From Cellulomonas sp. JH27-2 (GTDB lineage Bacteria > Actinomycetota > Actinomycetes > Actinomycetales > Cellulomonadaceae): a stretch of 64,000 nt of DNA. The translations under genes were made by a program, and so were the position numbers. A model generated the notes under the pieces. The model saw only the letters and a program-made list of their open reading frames with translations. It was not told where the DNA came from and made no database searches. This document shows positions 55,523 to 63,249 of this stretch, one piece after another. Each line of letters begins with the position of its first letter. Within the stretch, counting starts at the first letter, position 1. The DNA lies in assembly GCF_014837175.1 (NCBI RefSeq), contig NZ_JACYFR010000004.1, positions 1 through 64,000 of the forward strand, given 5' to 3'.

Positions 55523-56515
55523 GTGACCGCCGACCTGGCGATCTCCACGCGCGGCCTGCGCAAGACGTACCGACGGTTCAACCTGACGCGCTCCGTCGCG
55601 GTCGAGGGACTCGACCTCGACGTTCCGGTGGGCGGCGTGCACGGGTTCCTGGGGCCCAACGGGTCGGGGAAGACGACGACGATCCGCATGCTGCTGGGCC
55701 TCATCCGGGCCGACGAGGGCACGATGCGCTTGTTCGACCAGGAGGTGCCGCGCGCGCTGCCGCAGGTGGTCGGCCGCGTGGGGGCCATCGTCGAGCAGCC
55801 CAAGTTCTTCCCGAACTTCTCCGGGCGCCGCAACCTCATGCTGCTGGCGGGCGCGATCCACGCCGACCCGTCGCTCGTCGACGTCGTCCTGTCCGACGTC
55901 GGCCTCGCCGACCGCGCCAAGGATCGCTTCCGCAGCTACTCGCTGGGCATGAAGCAGCGGCTCGCCATCGCTGCGACGCTGCTCAAGGACCCAGACCTGC
56001 TGATCTTCGACGAGCCGACCAACGGCCTGGACCCGGCGGGGATCCGGGAGATCCGCGGCACCATGCGCGGGCTCGCGGACCGCGGCAAGACGGTGCTCGT
56101 CTCGAGCCACATCCTGGGCGAGGTCGAGCAGGTCGCCGACACCGTCTCGATCATCGCGCGCGGACGGCTGCTGGCCAGCGGTCGCGTGCAGGACCTCATC
56201 GGTGCCTCGGCTGTGACCACGGTGCGCGTCGGCGTGCACGACCCCGACGCGGCCGCGCAGGTCATCGCTGCGCGCGGCTGGGGCGTGCGGCGCGACGAGC
56301 GGATGCTGGTCGTCGACGGTGCGCCCGCGCCCGCCGCGATCACCGAGCTGCTGGCCGGCCACCGGCTGTTCGTCGACGAGCTCGTCCCGGTGCGCGCCGA
56401 CCTGGAGTCGGTGTTCCTCGAGCTCACCGCGGGCCAGGGGCCCGGCTCGCGAGCCGACGGCGGTGAGCACGGCCCGCACGGACGCCGCGCCCAGCCCGAG
56501 GGAGGTGCGCGATGA
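55523..56515 (+). CDS. ABC exporter ATPase, cassette 1
   Basis: 330 residues. Walker A GPNGSGKTT, signature YSLGMKQRLAIA and Walker B LLIFDEPTNGLDP are intact. The C-terminal 110 residues are an extra regulatory-type domain. GTG at 55523 follows GAGGGGG. Its stop overlaps its permease (ATGA). The same gene pair is repeated at 57579-59467, with recognisably similar sequence throughout (for example RGLRKTYR at the start and RLAIAATLL after the signature), so the region arose by duplication. Confidence 0.93.
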   Translation: MTADLAISTRGLRKTYRRFNLTRSVAVEGLDLDVPVGGVHGFLGPNGSGKTTTIRMLLGLIRADEGTMRLFDQEVPRALPQVVGRVGAIVEQPKFFPNFSGRRNLMLLAGAIHADPSLVDVVLSDVGLADRAKDRFRSYSLGMKQRLAIAATLLKDPDLLIFDEPTNGLDPAGIREIRGTMRGLADRGKTVLVSSHILGEVEQVADTVSIIARGRLLASGRVQDLIGASAVTTVRVGVHDPDAAAQVIAARGWGVRRDERMLVVDGAPAPAAITELLAGHRLFVDELVPVRADLESVFLELTAGQGPGSRADGGEHGPHGRRAQPEGGAR

Positions 56516-57495
56516 ACCTCCTGCGCGTCGAGCTCGCCCGGTTCTACGCCCGCGTCCTGCTCTGGTGCGTGGCGGTGGGTCTGTTCGTCGTGTCGGGGCT
56601 GGTCGTCTTCGACGCCTGGCACTCCTCCCGGCCGCCGTCGGCTGCAGCCGTGGCCGAGGCGCAGACGTTCTACGAGCAACAGCTCAAGGACTTCGAGGAG
56701 AACGGCGAGCAGATGGTCGCCGACTGCAAGGACCAGCAGTCGCAGGACCCGGACCCGAAGGCGGACTACGGCTGCGACCAGATGAAGCCGAAGCTCGAGT
56801 ACTACCTCCCGTACACGCCGAGCTTCGCCGGTGAAGGGGTCAGGTCGCTCGGGAACATCAGCATGGCGATCCTGCTCGTCGCGGGCCTGATGGGCACGAG
56901 CTTCGTCGCCGCCGAGTTCGCGAGCGGCGCGATCAGCAACTGGCTGACGTTCGCGCCGCGCCGCGTTCCCGTGTTCGCCAGCAAGCTCGGCGCCGCGTTC
57001 TTGGGCGTCCTGCCCGCCGTGATCCTGGCGGTGGGCGTCACCGCCGGTGGCATCGTGCTCGCCTACAGCTCCCACGGCCTGCTCGACGGTGTCACCGACG
57101 CTGCGTGGGCGGGCTTCCGCGACACGTCTCTGCGCCTCCTCGCCGTCGGACCGATCGCCGCCGTGGCGGGCGCCGCGCTCGCCTTCCTGCTGCGGCACAC
57201 GGCGGCCGTGCTGGGCGTGGTGATCGGCTGGGCCGTGGTGTGGGAGGGGTTGCTGCGGTCGCTCATCCCGACCCTCCAGCCCTACACGGTGGTGCTCGAC
57301 GTCACCGCGTGGGTGCAGGGCGGGACGACCTACTCCGTCGAGGACTGCGGCGTGCGTGCGCCGGACGGATCGATGACCTGCGAGTACGTCGAGCACACGC
57401 TGCACATGACGCAGGCCGGGCTGCAGCTCGGCGGGCTCGTCGTCGTGCTCGTCGTCGTCGCCCTGCTCGTGTTCCGCCGACGCGACGTGGCCTGA
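56512..57495 (+). CDS. ABC-2 type exporter permease, cassette 1
   Basis: 327 residues, six spans. The first extracytoplasmic loop carries Cys72 and Cys88, and the last loop Cys279 and Cys290, followed 37 residues later by the end FRRRDVA. The permease of cassette 2 has both cysteine pairs at matching places. Both pairs face outside by prediction, so disulfides are likely. The exported compound is unknown; family relatives include bacteriocin- and antibiotic-resistance exporters. Confidence 0.88.
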   Translation: MNLLRVELARFYARVLLWCVAVGLFVVSGLVVFDAWHSSRPPSAAAVAEAQTFYEQQLKDFEENGEQMVADCKDQQSQDPDPKADYGCDQMKPKLEYYLPYTPSFAGEGVRSLGNISMAILLVAGLMGTSFVAAEFASGAISNWLTFAPRRVPVFASKLGAAFLGVLPAVILAVGVTAGGIVLAYSSHGLLDGVTDAAWAGFRDTSLRLLAVGPIAAVAGAALAFLLRHTAAVLGVVIGWAVVWEGLLRSLIPTLQPYTVVLDVTAWVQGGTTYSVEDCGVRAPDGSMTCEYVEHTLHMTQAGLQLGGLVVVLVVVALLVFRRRDVA

Positions 57496-57578
57496 CCTGC
57501 AAGAACTTCAGTCCGGGGCGTTCCGCGCCGATGTCACCGGTGCACCGCGGCCGACCGGCCCGGGCGGACGGGTGGGCG

Positions 57579-58502
57579 ATGGGTGACGAGCCGGCGATCT
57601 GGACCCGGGGGCTGCGCAAGACGTACCGGTCGTTCACCATGCGCGAGGTCGTCGCGGTCCAGGGCCTCGACCTGCGCGTGCCCGCCGGTGGTGTGCACGC
57701 GTTCCTGGGGCCCAACGGCGCCGGCAAGACGACGACCATCCGGATGCTCCTGGGGATGGTGCGACCGGACGCCGGGGAGATCCGTCTGCTCGGGCACGCG
57801 CTCCCGCAGGGCCTCGAGCCCGCGTTGCGGCACGTGGGTGCGGTGGTGGAGCAGCCGACGTTCTACCCGCACTTCTCCGGCCGCGAGAATCTGATGCTGC
57901 TCGCCGTGGCGGCGGGCGTTCCCGCGTCGAAGGTCGATGCGGTGCTGGACCAGGTCGGCCTCGCCGGGCGCGGGCGCGACCGCTTCCGCAAGTACTCCCT
58001 CGGGATGCGCCAGCGGCTTGCGATCGCCGCAACCCTGCTGCGCGACCCGCAGCTCGTCATCCTCGACGAGCCGACGAACGGGCTGGACCCCGCGGGGATC
58101 CACGACGTGCGCGAGCTGATGAGGTCGCTCGCCGACCAGGGCCGGACCGTGCTCGTCTCCAGCCACGCGCTCGCGGAGGTCGAGCAGGTGGCGGACACGG
58201 TGTCGATCGTCGTGCGGGGTGCGTTGGTCGCGGAAGGGCGCGTCGCGGACCTGCTCGGTGAGCGGTCGGGCACGACCGTGCGGGTACGCGTGGACGAGAC
58301 GGACGACGCGGCCGCCGTCCTGCGGCGCACCGGGTGGACCGTGCGCGACGACGCCAACCACCTCGTCGTCGACGGTGCGCCGTCGGCGGCCGAGGTGAAC
58401 CGCTCGCTCGTGGCGTCGGGCATCTACGCGCACGAGCTGAGCCTGGTGCGGCCCGACCTGGAGGCGGTCTTCCTCGACCTCACGCGCGAGGTGGCCTCAT
58501 GA
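57579..58502 (+). CDS. ABC exporter ATPase, cassette 2
   Basis: 307 residues. Walker A GPNGAGKTT, signature YSLGMRQRLAIA and Walker B LVILDEPTNGLDP are intact. ATG at 57579 is chosen because the conserved domain starts close behind (IWTRGLRKTYRSF); an ATG at 57531 is also in frame. It begins 83 bases after permease 1 and overlaps permease 2 by 4 bases. Paralogue of the ATPase at 55523. Confidence 0.92.
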   Translation: MGDEPAIWTRGLRKTYRSFTMREVVAVQGLDLRVPAGGVHAFLGPNGAGKTTTIRMLLGMVRPDAGEIRLLGHALPQGLEPALRHVGAVVEQPTFYPHFSGRENLMLLAVAAGVPASKVDAVLDQVGLAGRGRDRFRKYSLGMRQRLAIAATLLRDPQLVILDEPTNGLDPAGIHDVRELMRSLADQGRTVLVSSHALAEVEQVADTVSIVVRGALVAEGRVADLLGERSGTTVRVRVDETDDAAAVLRRTGWTVRDDANHLVVDGAPSAAEVNRSLVASGIYAHELSLVRPDLEAVFLDLTREVAS

Positions 58503-59467
58503 CGCGTGCCCTGCGCGCCGAGCTCCGTCGGATCCGCCTGCGGACCGTCACGTGGCTGATGCTCGGCCTCCTGCTCGTCGTCGCCGCCGGGTTCGTCGCC
58601 ACGTCGTGGGACGACGCGCGGCCGAGGACGGCCGCCGAGCTCGCAGCAGCCCACGAGGCGTACGAGGACGACGTCCGCACCATCGCGGACATGGTCGTGC
58701 AGTGCCGTGCGCTCCGCGAGAAGAACCCTGACTTCGATCTCGACTGCGATCTGAAGGCCAACCCTGAGTCGTCGTATCTCTGGAGCGGCAGGTCCTTCGC
58801 TGACGTCCTGGCCAGTGCGGTCGACGGGCTCGCCGCGCCGCTCGCGGGCGCTGCGCTCGTCGTCGCGGTGTCGTTCGTGACGGCCGAGTTCGGCGCTCGG
58901 ACCATCGCGCCCTGGCTCGTCGTTGTCCCGCGCCGAACCCGGGTGGTGCTCAGCAAGACCTCGGCCGCCGCGATCGCCTCCGTGCCCGGCGCAGTGGTGA
59001 CCGTCGCGGTGACCGCGCTGGGCCTGATGGCGTTGTACGCGGCCTGCGGGCGCTCGGTCGGTGCGGCGGGCGTCTGGGGGCCCGTGGTGGGGACGGTCGG
59101 TCGTGAGCTGGTCCTGGTGGTGCTCGCCGCCGTCGTGGGCACGGGACTCGCCTTCGCGCTGCGGCACGCCACCGCGGTTCTCGGCGTCCTGGTCTGGTGG
59201 GTGATCGCCGTCGAGGTGACCCTCCCCGTGGTCCTGCCCGGGTGGGTCCCCGTGACGGTCGCGACGAACGCGAGCGCCTGGCTGACCGGTCGGGCGACGT
59301 ACACGGTCGAGCAGTGCACACCCGATCCTGCCCAACCCACGACGCCGTGGTGCCAGGACGTGGAGCACGTCGTCGGCGGGGGGCAGGGACTGATGGCGCT
59401 CGTCGTGCTGGCTGTGGTGGTCGCGCTGGCCGGCGTCCTCGTCTTCAAGCGACGGGACGTCACCTGA
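58499..59467 (+). CDS. ABC-2 type exporter permease, cassette 2
   Basis: 322 residues, six spans, paralogue of the permease at 56512. Cys69 and Cys83 lie in the first outer loop and Cys273 and Cys285 in the last; the second pair ends exactly 37 residues before the C-terminus, as in permease 1, and the tail FKRRDVT matches. Sequence elsewhere has diverged considerably, so the duplication is old or under divergent selection. Confidence 0.87.
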   Translation: MTRALRAELRRIRLRTVTWLMLGLLLVVAAGFVATSWDDARPRTAAELAAAHEAYEDDVRTIADMVVQCRALREKNPDFDLDCDLKANPESSYLWSGRSFADVLASAVDGLAAPLAGAALVVAVSFVTAEFGARTIAPWLVVVPRRTRVVLSKTSAAAIASVPGAVVTVAVTALGLMALYAACGRSVGAAGVWGPVVGTVGRELVLVVLAAVVGTGLAFALRHATAVLGVLVWWVIAVEVTLPVVLPGWVPVTVATNASAWLTGRATYTVEQCTPDPAQPTTPWCQDVEHVVGGGQGLMALVVLAVVVALAGVLVFKRRDVT

Positions 59468-59522
59468 CGCCCGTCCACTTGCTGGTCTCGTGAACCACGA
59501 TGTGAGACGGATCATGGGTGGC

Positions 59523-59551
59523 GTGACACCGCGCCTACGGAGGCGTAGCCT
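59523..59551 (+). promoter_or_regulatory. ilv operon promoter
   Basis: GTGACA (59523-59528), a 17-bp spacer and TAGCCT (59546-59551) form a good promoter. The leader peptide GTG begins 7 bases later, so the transcript would open directly with the leader ORF. A CTACG/CGTAG dyad (59535-59548) overlaps the -10. Confidence 0.65.
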
Positions 59552-59558
59552 CGCAGGC

Positions 59559-59603
59559 GTGCAGACGATCCTCCTCGTAGTACTTCCTGAGCGCGCCGGC
59601 TGA
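59559..59603 (+). CDS. ilvBNC leader peptide (Ile/Leu/Val-rich attenuator ORF)
   Basis: GTG at 59559 opens 14 codons, [14 protein letters not shown], then TGA. Six consecutive codons (Ile, Leu, Leu, Val, Val, Leu) are for the end products of the downstream pathway. A promoter ends 7 bases before it and a hairpin terminator lies 32 bases after it, 83 bases before ilvB. When branched-chain aminoacyl-tRNAs are short, ribosome stalling in this run should favour read-through. Attenuation of ilvBNC by such leaders is known in Corynebacterium; I infer the same here. Confidence 0.8.
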
Positions 59604-59635
59604 GGCCACCCGCACAGGCCTCGTCAGCGCGCTCA
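59588..59635 (+). promoter_or_regulatory. competing RNA stems of the ilv attenuator
   Basis: TGAGCGCGC (59588-59596, in the end of the leader ORF) pairs perfectly with GCGCGCTCA (59627-59635). A nested GAGGCC (59602-59607) pairs with GGCCTC (59617-59622). The outer stem would form only when the ribosome does not cover the leader end. Its 3' edge abuts the 5' arm of the terminator, so the two structures can influence each other. Confidence 0.6.
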
Positions 59636-59675
59636 CCCCTCGTTCGCCCGTGCCGGGCCCGGGGGGTTTTGTTTT
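59635..59675 (+). terminator. ilv attenuator terminator
   Basis: An inner stem GCCCG/CGGGC (59646-59658, loop TGC) and outer ACCCC/GGGGT (59635-59639 with 59663-59667) are followed by TTTTGTTTT (59667-59675). It is the only clear T-tailed terminator in front of a coding region in the window, and its place between the leader ORF and ilvB marks it as a regulated terminator. Confidence 0.7.
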
Positions 59676-59757
59676 GCCCACCACGCACGACCTCGCAGAG
59701 CAGCACCACCAGCAGCACCAACCCGAGCAGCACCACCGCACGCAGGGAGACACATCG

Positions 59758-61599
59758 ATGGTCACCGGTCCTCACCCGGCGCCGCCGCGCACACCCGCCC
59801 CGTCGCCGACCGCCGTCCCGACCCCCGCCCGCACGACGCCGAGCGTCAGCGAGCAGGTCACCGGCGCGCAGTCGATCGTGCGCTCGCTCGAGGAGGTGGG
59901 CGCCGAGGTCGTCTTCGGCATCCCCGGTGGAGCGATCCTGCCGACGTACGACCCGCTGATGGACTCCACCCGCCTGCGCCACATCCTGGTGCGCCACGAG
60001 CAGGGCGGCGGGCACGCCGCGGCCGGCTACGCGTCGGCGACCGGGCGCGTGGGCGTCTGCATGGCGACGTCCGGTCCCGGCGCGACGAACCTCGTGACCC
60101 CCATCGCCGACGCGCACATGGACTCGGTCCCGCTGGTCGCGATCACCGGGCAGGTGGGCGCGTCGCTGATCGGCACGGACGCGTTCCAGGAGGCCGACAT
60201 CGTCGGCATCACGCTGCCCGTCACCAAGCACAACTACCTGGTCACCGACCCCGACGAGATCCCGCGCGTCATCGCGGAGGCGTTCCACATCGCGTCGACG
60301 GGTCGCCCCGGCCCTGTGCTCGTCGACATCGCCAAGTCCGCGATGCAGAGCCAGACCACGTTCGCCTGGCCGCAGGAGATCTCGCTGCCCGGCTACCACC
60401 CGGTGACCAAGCCGCACGCCAAGCAGATCCGCGAGGCGGCCCGGCTGCTCGCGACGGCTCGTCGGCCCGTCCTGTACGTCGGGGGCGGCGTGATCCGCGC
60501 CCGCGCATCGGCGGAGCTGCGCGCCCTCGTCGACGCGTCCGGCGCGCCCGCGGTGACCACCCTCATGGCCCGCGGCGCGCTGCCCGACTCGCACCCGCAG
60601 AACCTGGGTATGCCCGGCATGCACGGCACCGTGGCCGCCGTCGCGGCGCTGCAGAAGGCCGACCTGATCGTCGCCCTCGGTGCCCGGTTCGACGACCGCG
60701 TCACGGGCCTGCTGTCGAGCTTCGCGCCCGGTGCCGCGGTCGTCCACGCCGACATCGACCCGGCCGAGATCGGCAAGAACCGCACGGCGGACGTGCCGAT
60801 CGTCGGCGACCTGCGCGAGGTCATGGCCGACCTGCTGCCCGAGCTCGCTCGTGAGCACGCCCAGCACGGCAAGCCTGACCTCGAGGGCTGGTGGAAGACG
60901 CTCGACGACCTGCGCGAGTCCTTCCCGCTGGGCTTCGACGAGCCGTCGGACGGGCTGCTCGCGCCCCAGCACGTCATCTCCAGGATCGGCGCGCTGTCCG
61001 GCCCGGAGGCGACGTACGTCGCGGGCGTGGGCCAGCACCAGATGTGGGCCGCGCAATTCATCCGCTACGAGCGCCCCAACGCGTGGCTCAACTCGGGCGG
61101 TCTCGGCACCATGGGCTACTCGGTCCCCGCGGCCATGGGCGCGAAGGTGGGGGAGCCGGACCGCACGGTCTGGGCGATCGACGGCGACGGCTGCTTCCAG
61201 ATGACCAACCAGGAGCTGGCCACCTGCACGATCAACGAGATCCCGATCAAGGTCGCGATCATCAACAACTCATCGCTCGGCATGGTGCGCCAGTGGCAGA
61301 CCCTGTTCTACGAGTCGCGCTACTCCAACACGGACCTGCACACGGGCCACGGGACCAAGCGCGTGCCGGACTTCGTCAAGATGGCGGACGCGTACGGGGC
61401 CGTGGGCCTGCGGTGCGAGTCCAAGGCCGACGTCGACGCGACGATCAAGCGCGCGCTCGAGATCAACGACCAGCCCGTGGTCGTCGACTTCACGGTCTCG
61501 CGCGACTCGATGGTGTGGCCGATGGTCGCCGCCGGCGTGAGCAACGACAAGATCCAGTACGCCCGGGGCATCAGCCCGGCGTGGGACCGGGAGGACTGA
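59758..61599 (+). CDS. ilvB: acetolactate synthase, catalytic subunit
   Basis: 613-residue ThDP enzyme, first common step of valine, leucine and isoleucine synthesis. [15 protein letters not shown], the catalytic Glu in [14 protein letters not shown], and the ThDP-magnesium motif from GDGCFQM to [11 protein letters not shown] are visible. ATG at 59758 follows GGGAGA. The first 37 residues are Pro/Ala/Thr-rich and not conserved. It is followed by ilvN after 53 bases. Confidence 0.97.

Positions 61600-61652: not shown

Positions 61653-63249
<1,597 letters not shown>

Follow-up and report, generated by a model that had tools for sequence, protein, structure and literature searches.

The 5′ leader of the ilvBNC operon of Cellulomonas sp. 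JH27-2 is probably a ribosome-mediated transcription attenuator and an orthologue of the ilvL elements found elsewhere in Actinomycetota. Within the window, by which we mean the whole stretch of 64,000 nucleotides that was analysed, this locus carries a promoter, a leader open reading frame (ORF) with a run of branched-chain amino acid codons, a hairpin and an intrinsic terminator. These parts and the reading frame are conserved in related genomes, the terminator covaries, and the leader has a strong codon bias. An earlier note on this DNA had proposed a translation-coupled attenuator with all of its parts in order. The peptide, terminator, conservation and covariation agree with that proposal, but the competing-stem logic attached to it fared less well. 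The remark that ilvBNC attenuation is known in Corynebacterium is borne out by published work on C. glutamicum (PMC11857589). Since leaderless ilvB attenuators have already been published, the element belongs to a known class: the leaderless start and the combination of ilvB leader and terminator are familiar in Actinobacteria, whereas the codon pattern and the near-absent overlap between hairpin and terminator are less so.

The attenuator parts and the ilv genes lie on the forward strand. The attenuator occupies the 5′ leader of ilvB(N)(C), as do ilvL-type attenuators generally. The acetolactate synthase large subunit gene ilvB (59758-61599; NCBIfam NF005860, 1121 bits, cut-off 881) starts with ATG and is preceded by the Shine-Dalgarno sequence AGGGAG (59744-59749). 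It is followed by ilvN, encoding the small subunit (61653-62177; TIGR00119, 203.6 bits, cut-off 56.9), and by the ketol-acid reductoisomerase gene ilvC (62221-63249; NF004017, 551 bits, cut-off 336). Upstream of the ilv operon, three ORFs (56512-57495, 57543-58502 and 58499-59467) encode an ABC-transporter ATPase flanked by two membrane proteins that resemble each other in size and layout; the two permease-like ORFs had no match to an NCBIfam model.

The leader ORF, ilvL, spans positions 59559-59603. As the earlier note had read it, this is a 14-codon ORF with six consecutive branched-chain codons: it begins with GTG, contains the putative regulatory codons ATC CTC CTC GTA GTA CTT (59568-59585) and ends at a TGA (59601-59603), 154 bases 5′ of ilvB. 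The run is found in 61/61 same-genus genomes, where the leaders start with GTG (n = 45) or ATG (n = 16) and encode peptides of 9-15 residues. The ORF thus appears to be a conserved coding sequence with an Ile/Leu/Val run, as in ilvL-type attenuators. Between the start codon and the hairpin arm, 58 of the 61 genomes have a distance that is constant modulo 3, whereas the distances from stop codon to terminator ignore the frame; this contrast is good evidence that the leader ORF is translated. The three frame exceptions (L047, L048 and L052) have in common a one-base deletion after the branched-chain run that shortens the peptide. In these loci (L047:270-385, L048:417-532 and L052:417-532) the leader is cut to VQTNLLVVLT, with the stop codon moved upstream, while the hairpin sequence and terminator are retained. 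A longer ORF in the same frame, from GTG 59523 or earlier, was rejected, as the added codons run across the −35 element and show no conservation. A hairpin at the start of the ORF (59559-59583) was likewise discarded as a part, its pairs being lost in several relatives.

Short ORFs are common in high-GC DNA, and the arrangement might be a chance resemblance in a GC-rich intergenic region. When the intergenic region was shuffled 5000 times with its dinucleotide content kept, one shuffle produced a run of at least six branched-chain codons in any ORF of at most 40 codons; with a TAnnnT motif 5′ of the start as a further requirement, 0 of 5000 did. The conservation in 61/61 genomes already refutes chance, to which we assign a negligible probability.

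Upstream of the leader, a −35 element (GTGACA, 59523-59528) and a −10 element (TAGCCT, of the form TAnnnT, 59546-59551) were read from the sequence and are kept in relatives. They are 17 bases apart, and 7 bases separate the −10 element from the leader GTG, which matches the promoter proposed earlier; the layout is present in 61/61 same-genus genomes. There, the −35 element is GTGACA in 59/61 and ATGACA in 2/61, the spacer is 17 bases in 46 genomes and 18 in 15, and the TAnnnT motif is kept in all 61, ending 6-8 bases 5′ of the leader start codon. The promoter thus appears to be placed for a leaderless leader transcript, the arrangement of ilvL-type attenuators. In C. glutamicum, the transcript begins a single base away from the start codon of the leader (work of Morbach et al., summarised in PMC11857589), and ilvL of S. 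lividans has been reported as leaderless (PMC8079986). Both precedents and the promoter spacing fit the leaderless ORF of the earlier note; the start site itself we infer from the spacing, which would place it at GTG 59559 or within a base or two.

The full layout of promoter, start codon, branched-chain run, hairpin and terminator precedes ilvB in 61/61 sampled same-genus genomes, with its spacing kept. None of these relatives lacks both the codon run and the hairpin, the finding that the earlier note had named as fatal to its proposal. The closest named record, Cellulomonas cellasea, is 90% identical in IlvB and has a leader peptide of its own. Further away, homologous leaders are present in Streptomyces, Mycobacterium, Nocardia, Rhodococcus and Corynebacterium. 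Leader and terminator were identified together in 30/30 genomes of a Streptomyces-type genus and 28/30 of a Mycobacterium-type genus, while a Corynebacterium-type genus had the leader in 29/30 and a detected terminator in 23 (these sample labels were inferred from leader peptides and named relatives). In the same-genus set, terminators were called with a regular expression, which missed the one in L007 that is visible in the alignment. One leader-peptide layout therefore precedes ilvB across much of the phylum, and the window adds a conserved, testable case. A leader ORF of the ilvL type was not found before ilvB in Microbacterium, Mycetocola, Agreia, Gryllotalpicola, Subtercola, Leucobacter and a Microbacteriaceae MAG, which suggests that the attenuator was lost or replaced in Microbacteriaceae. 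The loci without a leader on the Microbacteriaceae side are L149, L153, L156, L162, L170, L172, L173, L175, L180, L191 and L192.

Downstream of the run lie two stems. The GC-rich hairpin A (59588-59635), predicted by folding and covariation, takes its 5′ arm from the end of the leader ORF (codons GAG CGC GCC) and its 3′ arm from GCGCGCTC; it is a putative antiterminator or pause hairpin. The intrinsic terminator (59635-59675), identified by a terminator scan and folding, consists of a stem of ACCCCTCG and CGGGGGGT (59635-59667) and a U tract, TTTTGTTTT (59667-59675), that is broken by G59671. The scan returned one site where 0.1 were expected, and the terminator is positioned 82 bases 5′ of ilvB. 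A Rho-independent terminator thus probably separates leader ORF and ilvB, as in other ilvL-type attenuators. The fold z-score was −3.7 for the leader and −4.7 for hairpin A plus terminator.

An alignment of relatives had been suggested as a check on the codon run and on stem covariation. In our alignment of 61 same-genus sequences (54 distinct rows), both the run and the stems are kept in 61/61 and compensatory change was found. Overall, 91% of cells pair. The covariation score was 0.173 compared with 0.103 for shuffled alignments, and 0/500 shuffles matched it; kinship among the sequences inflates this comparison, but slid versions of the structure, a control that preserves kinship, were all far worse. 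In the terminator, 99.8% of cells in the lower stem are paired, and the base pair adjoining the U tract is A-U in 31, G-C in 21 and G-U in 2 of the 54 distinct sequences. The T-tailed terminator claimed before ilvB is thus present, kept in relatives and accompanied by clear compensatory change. For hairpin A, 88.7% of cells are paired over 17 pairs, and both sides change in 6/17.

The earlier note described these stems as competing. Both are present, but they are adjacent and compatible in folds that mask the ribosome footprint. With its 3′ arm, hairpin A runs right up to the terminator, and at most A59635 is common to both, pairing with U59588 in hairpin A and with U59667 in the terminator. 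We folded the 61 leaders without a ribosome and with one placed on the first branched-chain codon, on the last or on the stop; the terminator 3′ arm was included in some folds and omitted in others. Masked folding did not displace the terminator: its predicted probability was about 1 in all states, except for one sequence in one state. Nor was the terminator 5′ arm appreciably sequestered in the window genus before the 3′ arm is made, with a paired fraction of 0.07 for an early stall and 0.01 for a stall at the first GTA. The corresponding values were 0.0 (early stall) in the Streptomyces-type genus, 0.28 (early), 0.03 (first GTA) and 0.04 (stop) in the Mycobacterium-type genus, and 0.68 (early stall) versus 0.27 (stop) in the Corynebacterium-type genus, for which a competing antiterminator has been published. 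The folds of the 61 leaders at several ribosome positions contained no conserved classical antiterminator, and this candidate was set aside.

A rival reading accepts both the leader ORF and the terminator but has no sensing of branched-chain amino acids through competing RNA structures: translation would act directly on RNA polymerase, through pausing, pushing or Rho access, and hairpin A would be no antiterminator. In its favour, neither the window genus nor the Streptomyces-type leaders show a conserved pairing that excludes the terminator, unlike the Corynebacterium-type leaders. Also in its favour, and against attenuation by codon sensing, changes to candidate regulatory codons of the S. 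coelicolor ilvB leader were without effect and regulation was normal (Craster 1999, as cited in PMC1262725). Against it, compensatory changes accompany the conservation of hairpin A, whose 3′ arm adjoins the terminator. Static folding was also nearly negative for the Mycobacterium-type leaders at a valine stall, where the value was 0.03 as given above, despite experimental evidence for attenuation in M. tuberculosis (PMC13236596), so the folding test is insensitive. We consider direct action unlikely. The negative folding results weaken the competing-stem logic, but they do not argue strongly against attenuation. The fast attenuator of C. glutamicum has an overlap of three bases between antiterminator and terminator (PMC11857589), and by analogy the layout in the window could be an extreme form of such a short-overlap attenuator.

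Attenuation by a leader ribosome, the reading that we prefer, would proceed as follows. The ribosome would need no Shine-Dalgarno sequence and would load at the start codon of the leader itself. When charged Ile-, Leu- and Val-tRNAs are plentiful, it would reach the stop codon at 59601 and cover the 5′ arm of hairpin A, allowing the terminator to form and halting RNA polymerase near 59667-59675. Under branched-chain amino acid shortage, the ribosome would instead be expected to stall on the six regulatory codons. Hairpin A could then form right against the base of the terminator, resulting in more readthrough into ilvBNC. The lowering of termination by hairpin A is the most inferential step. 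An overlap of one base or less raises the question of how high-GC attenuators switch, including the puzzling one of Streptomyces.

Several features of this scheme have counterparts in better-known systems. Like the leader in the window, ilvL (ilvB-II) of C. glutamicum precedes ilvBNC and encodes a leaderless branched-chain peptide with conserved CUU and GUA control codons (PMC11857589, PMC10272879); the ilvB-II motif comprises 103 Corynebacterium sequences (PMC10272879). In both cases a hairpin overlaps or abuts the terminator. The C. glutamicum leader has 15 codons and encodes MTIIRLVVVTARRLP, while the window peptide differs in sequence and the window GC content is much higher. In C. glutamicum the antiterminator shares a GCC trinucleotide with the terminator, whereas in the window at most A59635 is common to the two stems. 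The ilvB1NC operon of M. tuberculosis, the same operon, also has an upstream ORF of branched-chain codons including GUA, followed by a hairpin and terminator (PMC13236596). Its regulatory codons encode LVVI, and replacement with Ala resulted in low, unresponsive expression (PMC13236596). Attenuation has thus been demonstrated experimentally in M. tuberculosis, while for the element in the window it is predicted. Hairpin A of several Mycobacterium-type leaders can extend into the terminator 5′ arm, which hairpin A of the window does not.

The leaderless ilvL of S. lividans encodes the peptide MRTRILVLGKRVG (PMC8079986). Streptomyces resembles the window in the order of hairpin and terminator and in having no predicted sequestration of the terminator 5′ arm. 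The Streptomyces ilvL has 13 codons with one GTA in the run, compared with 14 codons and two GTA in the window; the Streptomyces loci that we examined carry ATT CTC GTA CTT, and most of them have 43-57 bases between stop codon and terminator versus 25-45 in the window genus. Seliverstov et al. 2005 predicted ilvB leader peptides and terminators in Corynebacterium, Mycobacterium and Streptomyces, and called the mode of regulation unclear because regulation had persisted in codon mutants of S. coelicolor (PMC1262725). Like the window, their candidates combine a short ORF rich in Ile, Val and Leu codons with a terminator; Cellulomonas was outside the set of genomes that they used.

Some bacteria have a ppGpp riboswitch in front of ilvB (PMC10272879), and a small-molecule RNA switch (a riboswitch, T-box or LEU element) could in principle take the place of the leader peptide. 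Such a switch is very improbable here: the ORF is conserved in frame, and the Corynebacterium counterpart did not respond to ppGpp in in-line probing (PMC10272879). At gathering score, Rfam matched only a 5S rRNA gene at 1-75, truncated by the window start to its 3′ portion, and nothing credible at 59000-60200, and a riboswitch or other Rfam RNA was accordingly dropped.

The valine and leucine codons of the leader depart sharply from those of ilvB. The reference for codon usage was ilvB together with genes close to it. GTA accounts for 118/124 Val codons in same-genus leaders versus 2/1682 in ilvB of 30 genomes, and CTT for 65/146 Leu codons versus 3/1245 in ilvB; CTG, the commonest Leu codon of ilvB, is used 0 times in these leaders. 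In other genera, GTA makes up 105/205 leader Val codons compared with 34/3987 in ilvB of those loci, and 79/83 leaders, picked blind to their codons, contain at least one GTA. The leader candidates L124, L130, L158 and L075 (Arthrobacter, Paenarthrobacter, Brevibacterium and one further genome) use GTC or GTT without GTA. Across five groups, GTA represents 279/312 Val codons 5′ of the last Arg and 10/99 of those 3′ of it, although codons 3′ of the Arg fall within or close to the hairpin arm and thus make an imperfect control, and Fisher P-values are not to be taken literally given the relatedness of the species.

The conserved GTA/CTT stretch may alternatively be an RNA sequence or structure element and no codon sensor; it could, for instance, base-pair with another segment or offer leaderless initiation a weakly structured place to land. 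Consistent with this, CTCGTAGTACTT is almost invariant as nucleotides in the window genus, the Pro codon next to the run is often the A/T-ending CCT, and the GTA context has a weak downstream complementarity (mean z of −0.98 in the window genus and −0.43 elsewhere). The number of GTA codons and their spacing to the hairpin, however, differ by whole codons across the phylum, GTA exceeds GTT by 118:1 in the window genus, and no single downstream partner is common to the taxa. Pairing of the CTCGTA stretch with downstream RNA was rejected for its weak average signal and its inconsistency between taxa. We rate an RNA element without codon sensing as quite unlikely.

The phylum-wide bias towards GTA, a codon that these GC-rich genomes otherwise avoid, suggests selection for sensing of tRNA-Val(UAC). 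The conservation of CUU and GUA as control codons had been described before in close relatives of C. glutamicum (PMC11857589), and GUA is drawn as the stall codon for M. tuberculosis (PMC13236596). We found no published report of the rarity of GTA or of a phylum-wide pattern in ilvB leaders, in a search that covered few subscription journals. Given the theory of selective tRNA charging and the precedent of the leu leader (PMC1183508), isoacceptor sensing is a reasonable reading, although the same bases may be kept for a structural reason. We tentatively propose, as a possibility somewhat short of an even chance, that the ilvB leader reports the charging of tRNA-Val(UAC) and not valine generally, and that in the window genus and Streptomyces the hairpin merely abuts the terminator, so that the coupling would dispense with a classical antiterminator. 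The sensing position, where GTA is used almost exclusively, lends itself to a simple synonymous-codon experiment. Among the 45 tRNA matches found in the genome, the tRNA-Val genes comprise one each with the anticodons UAC, GAC and CAC.
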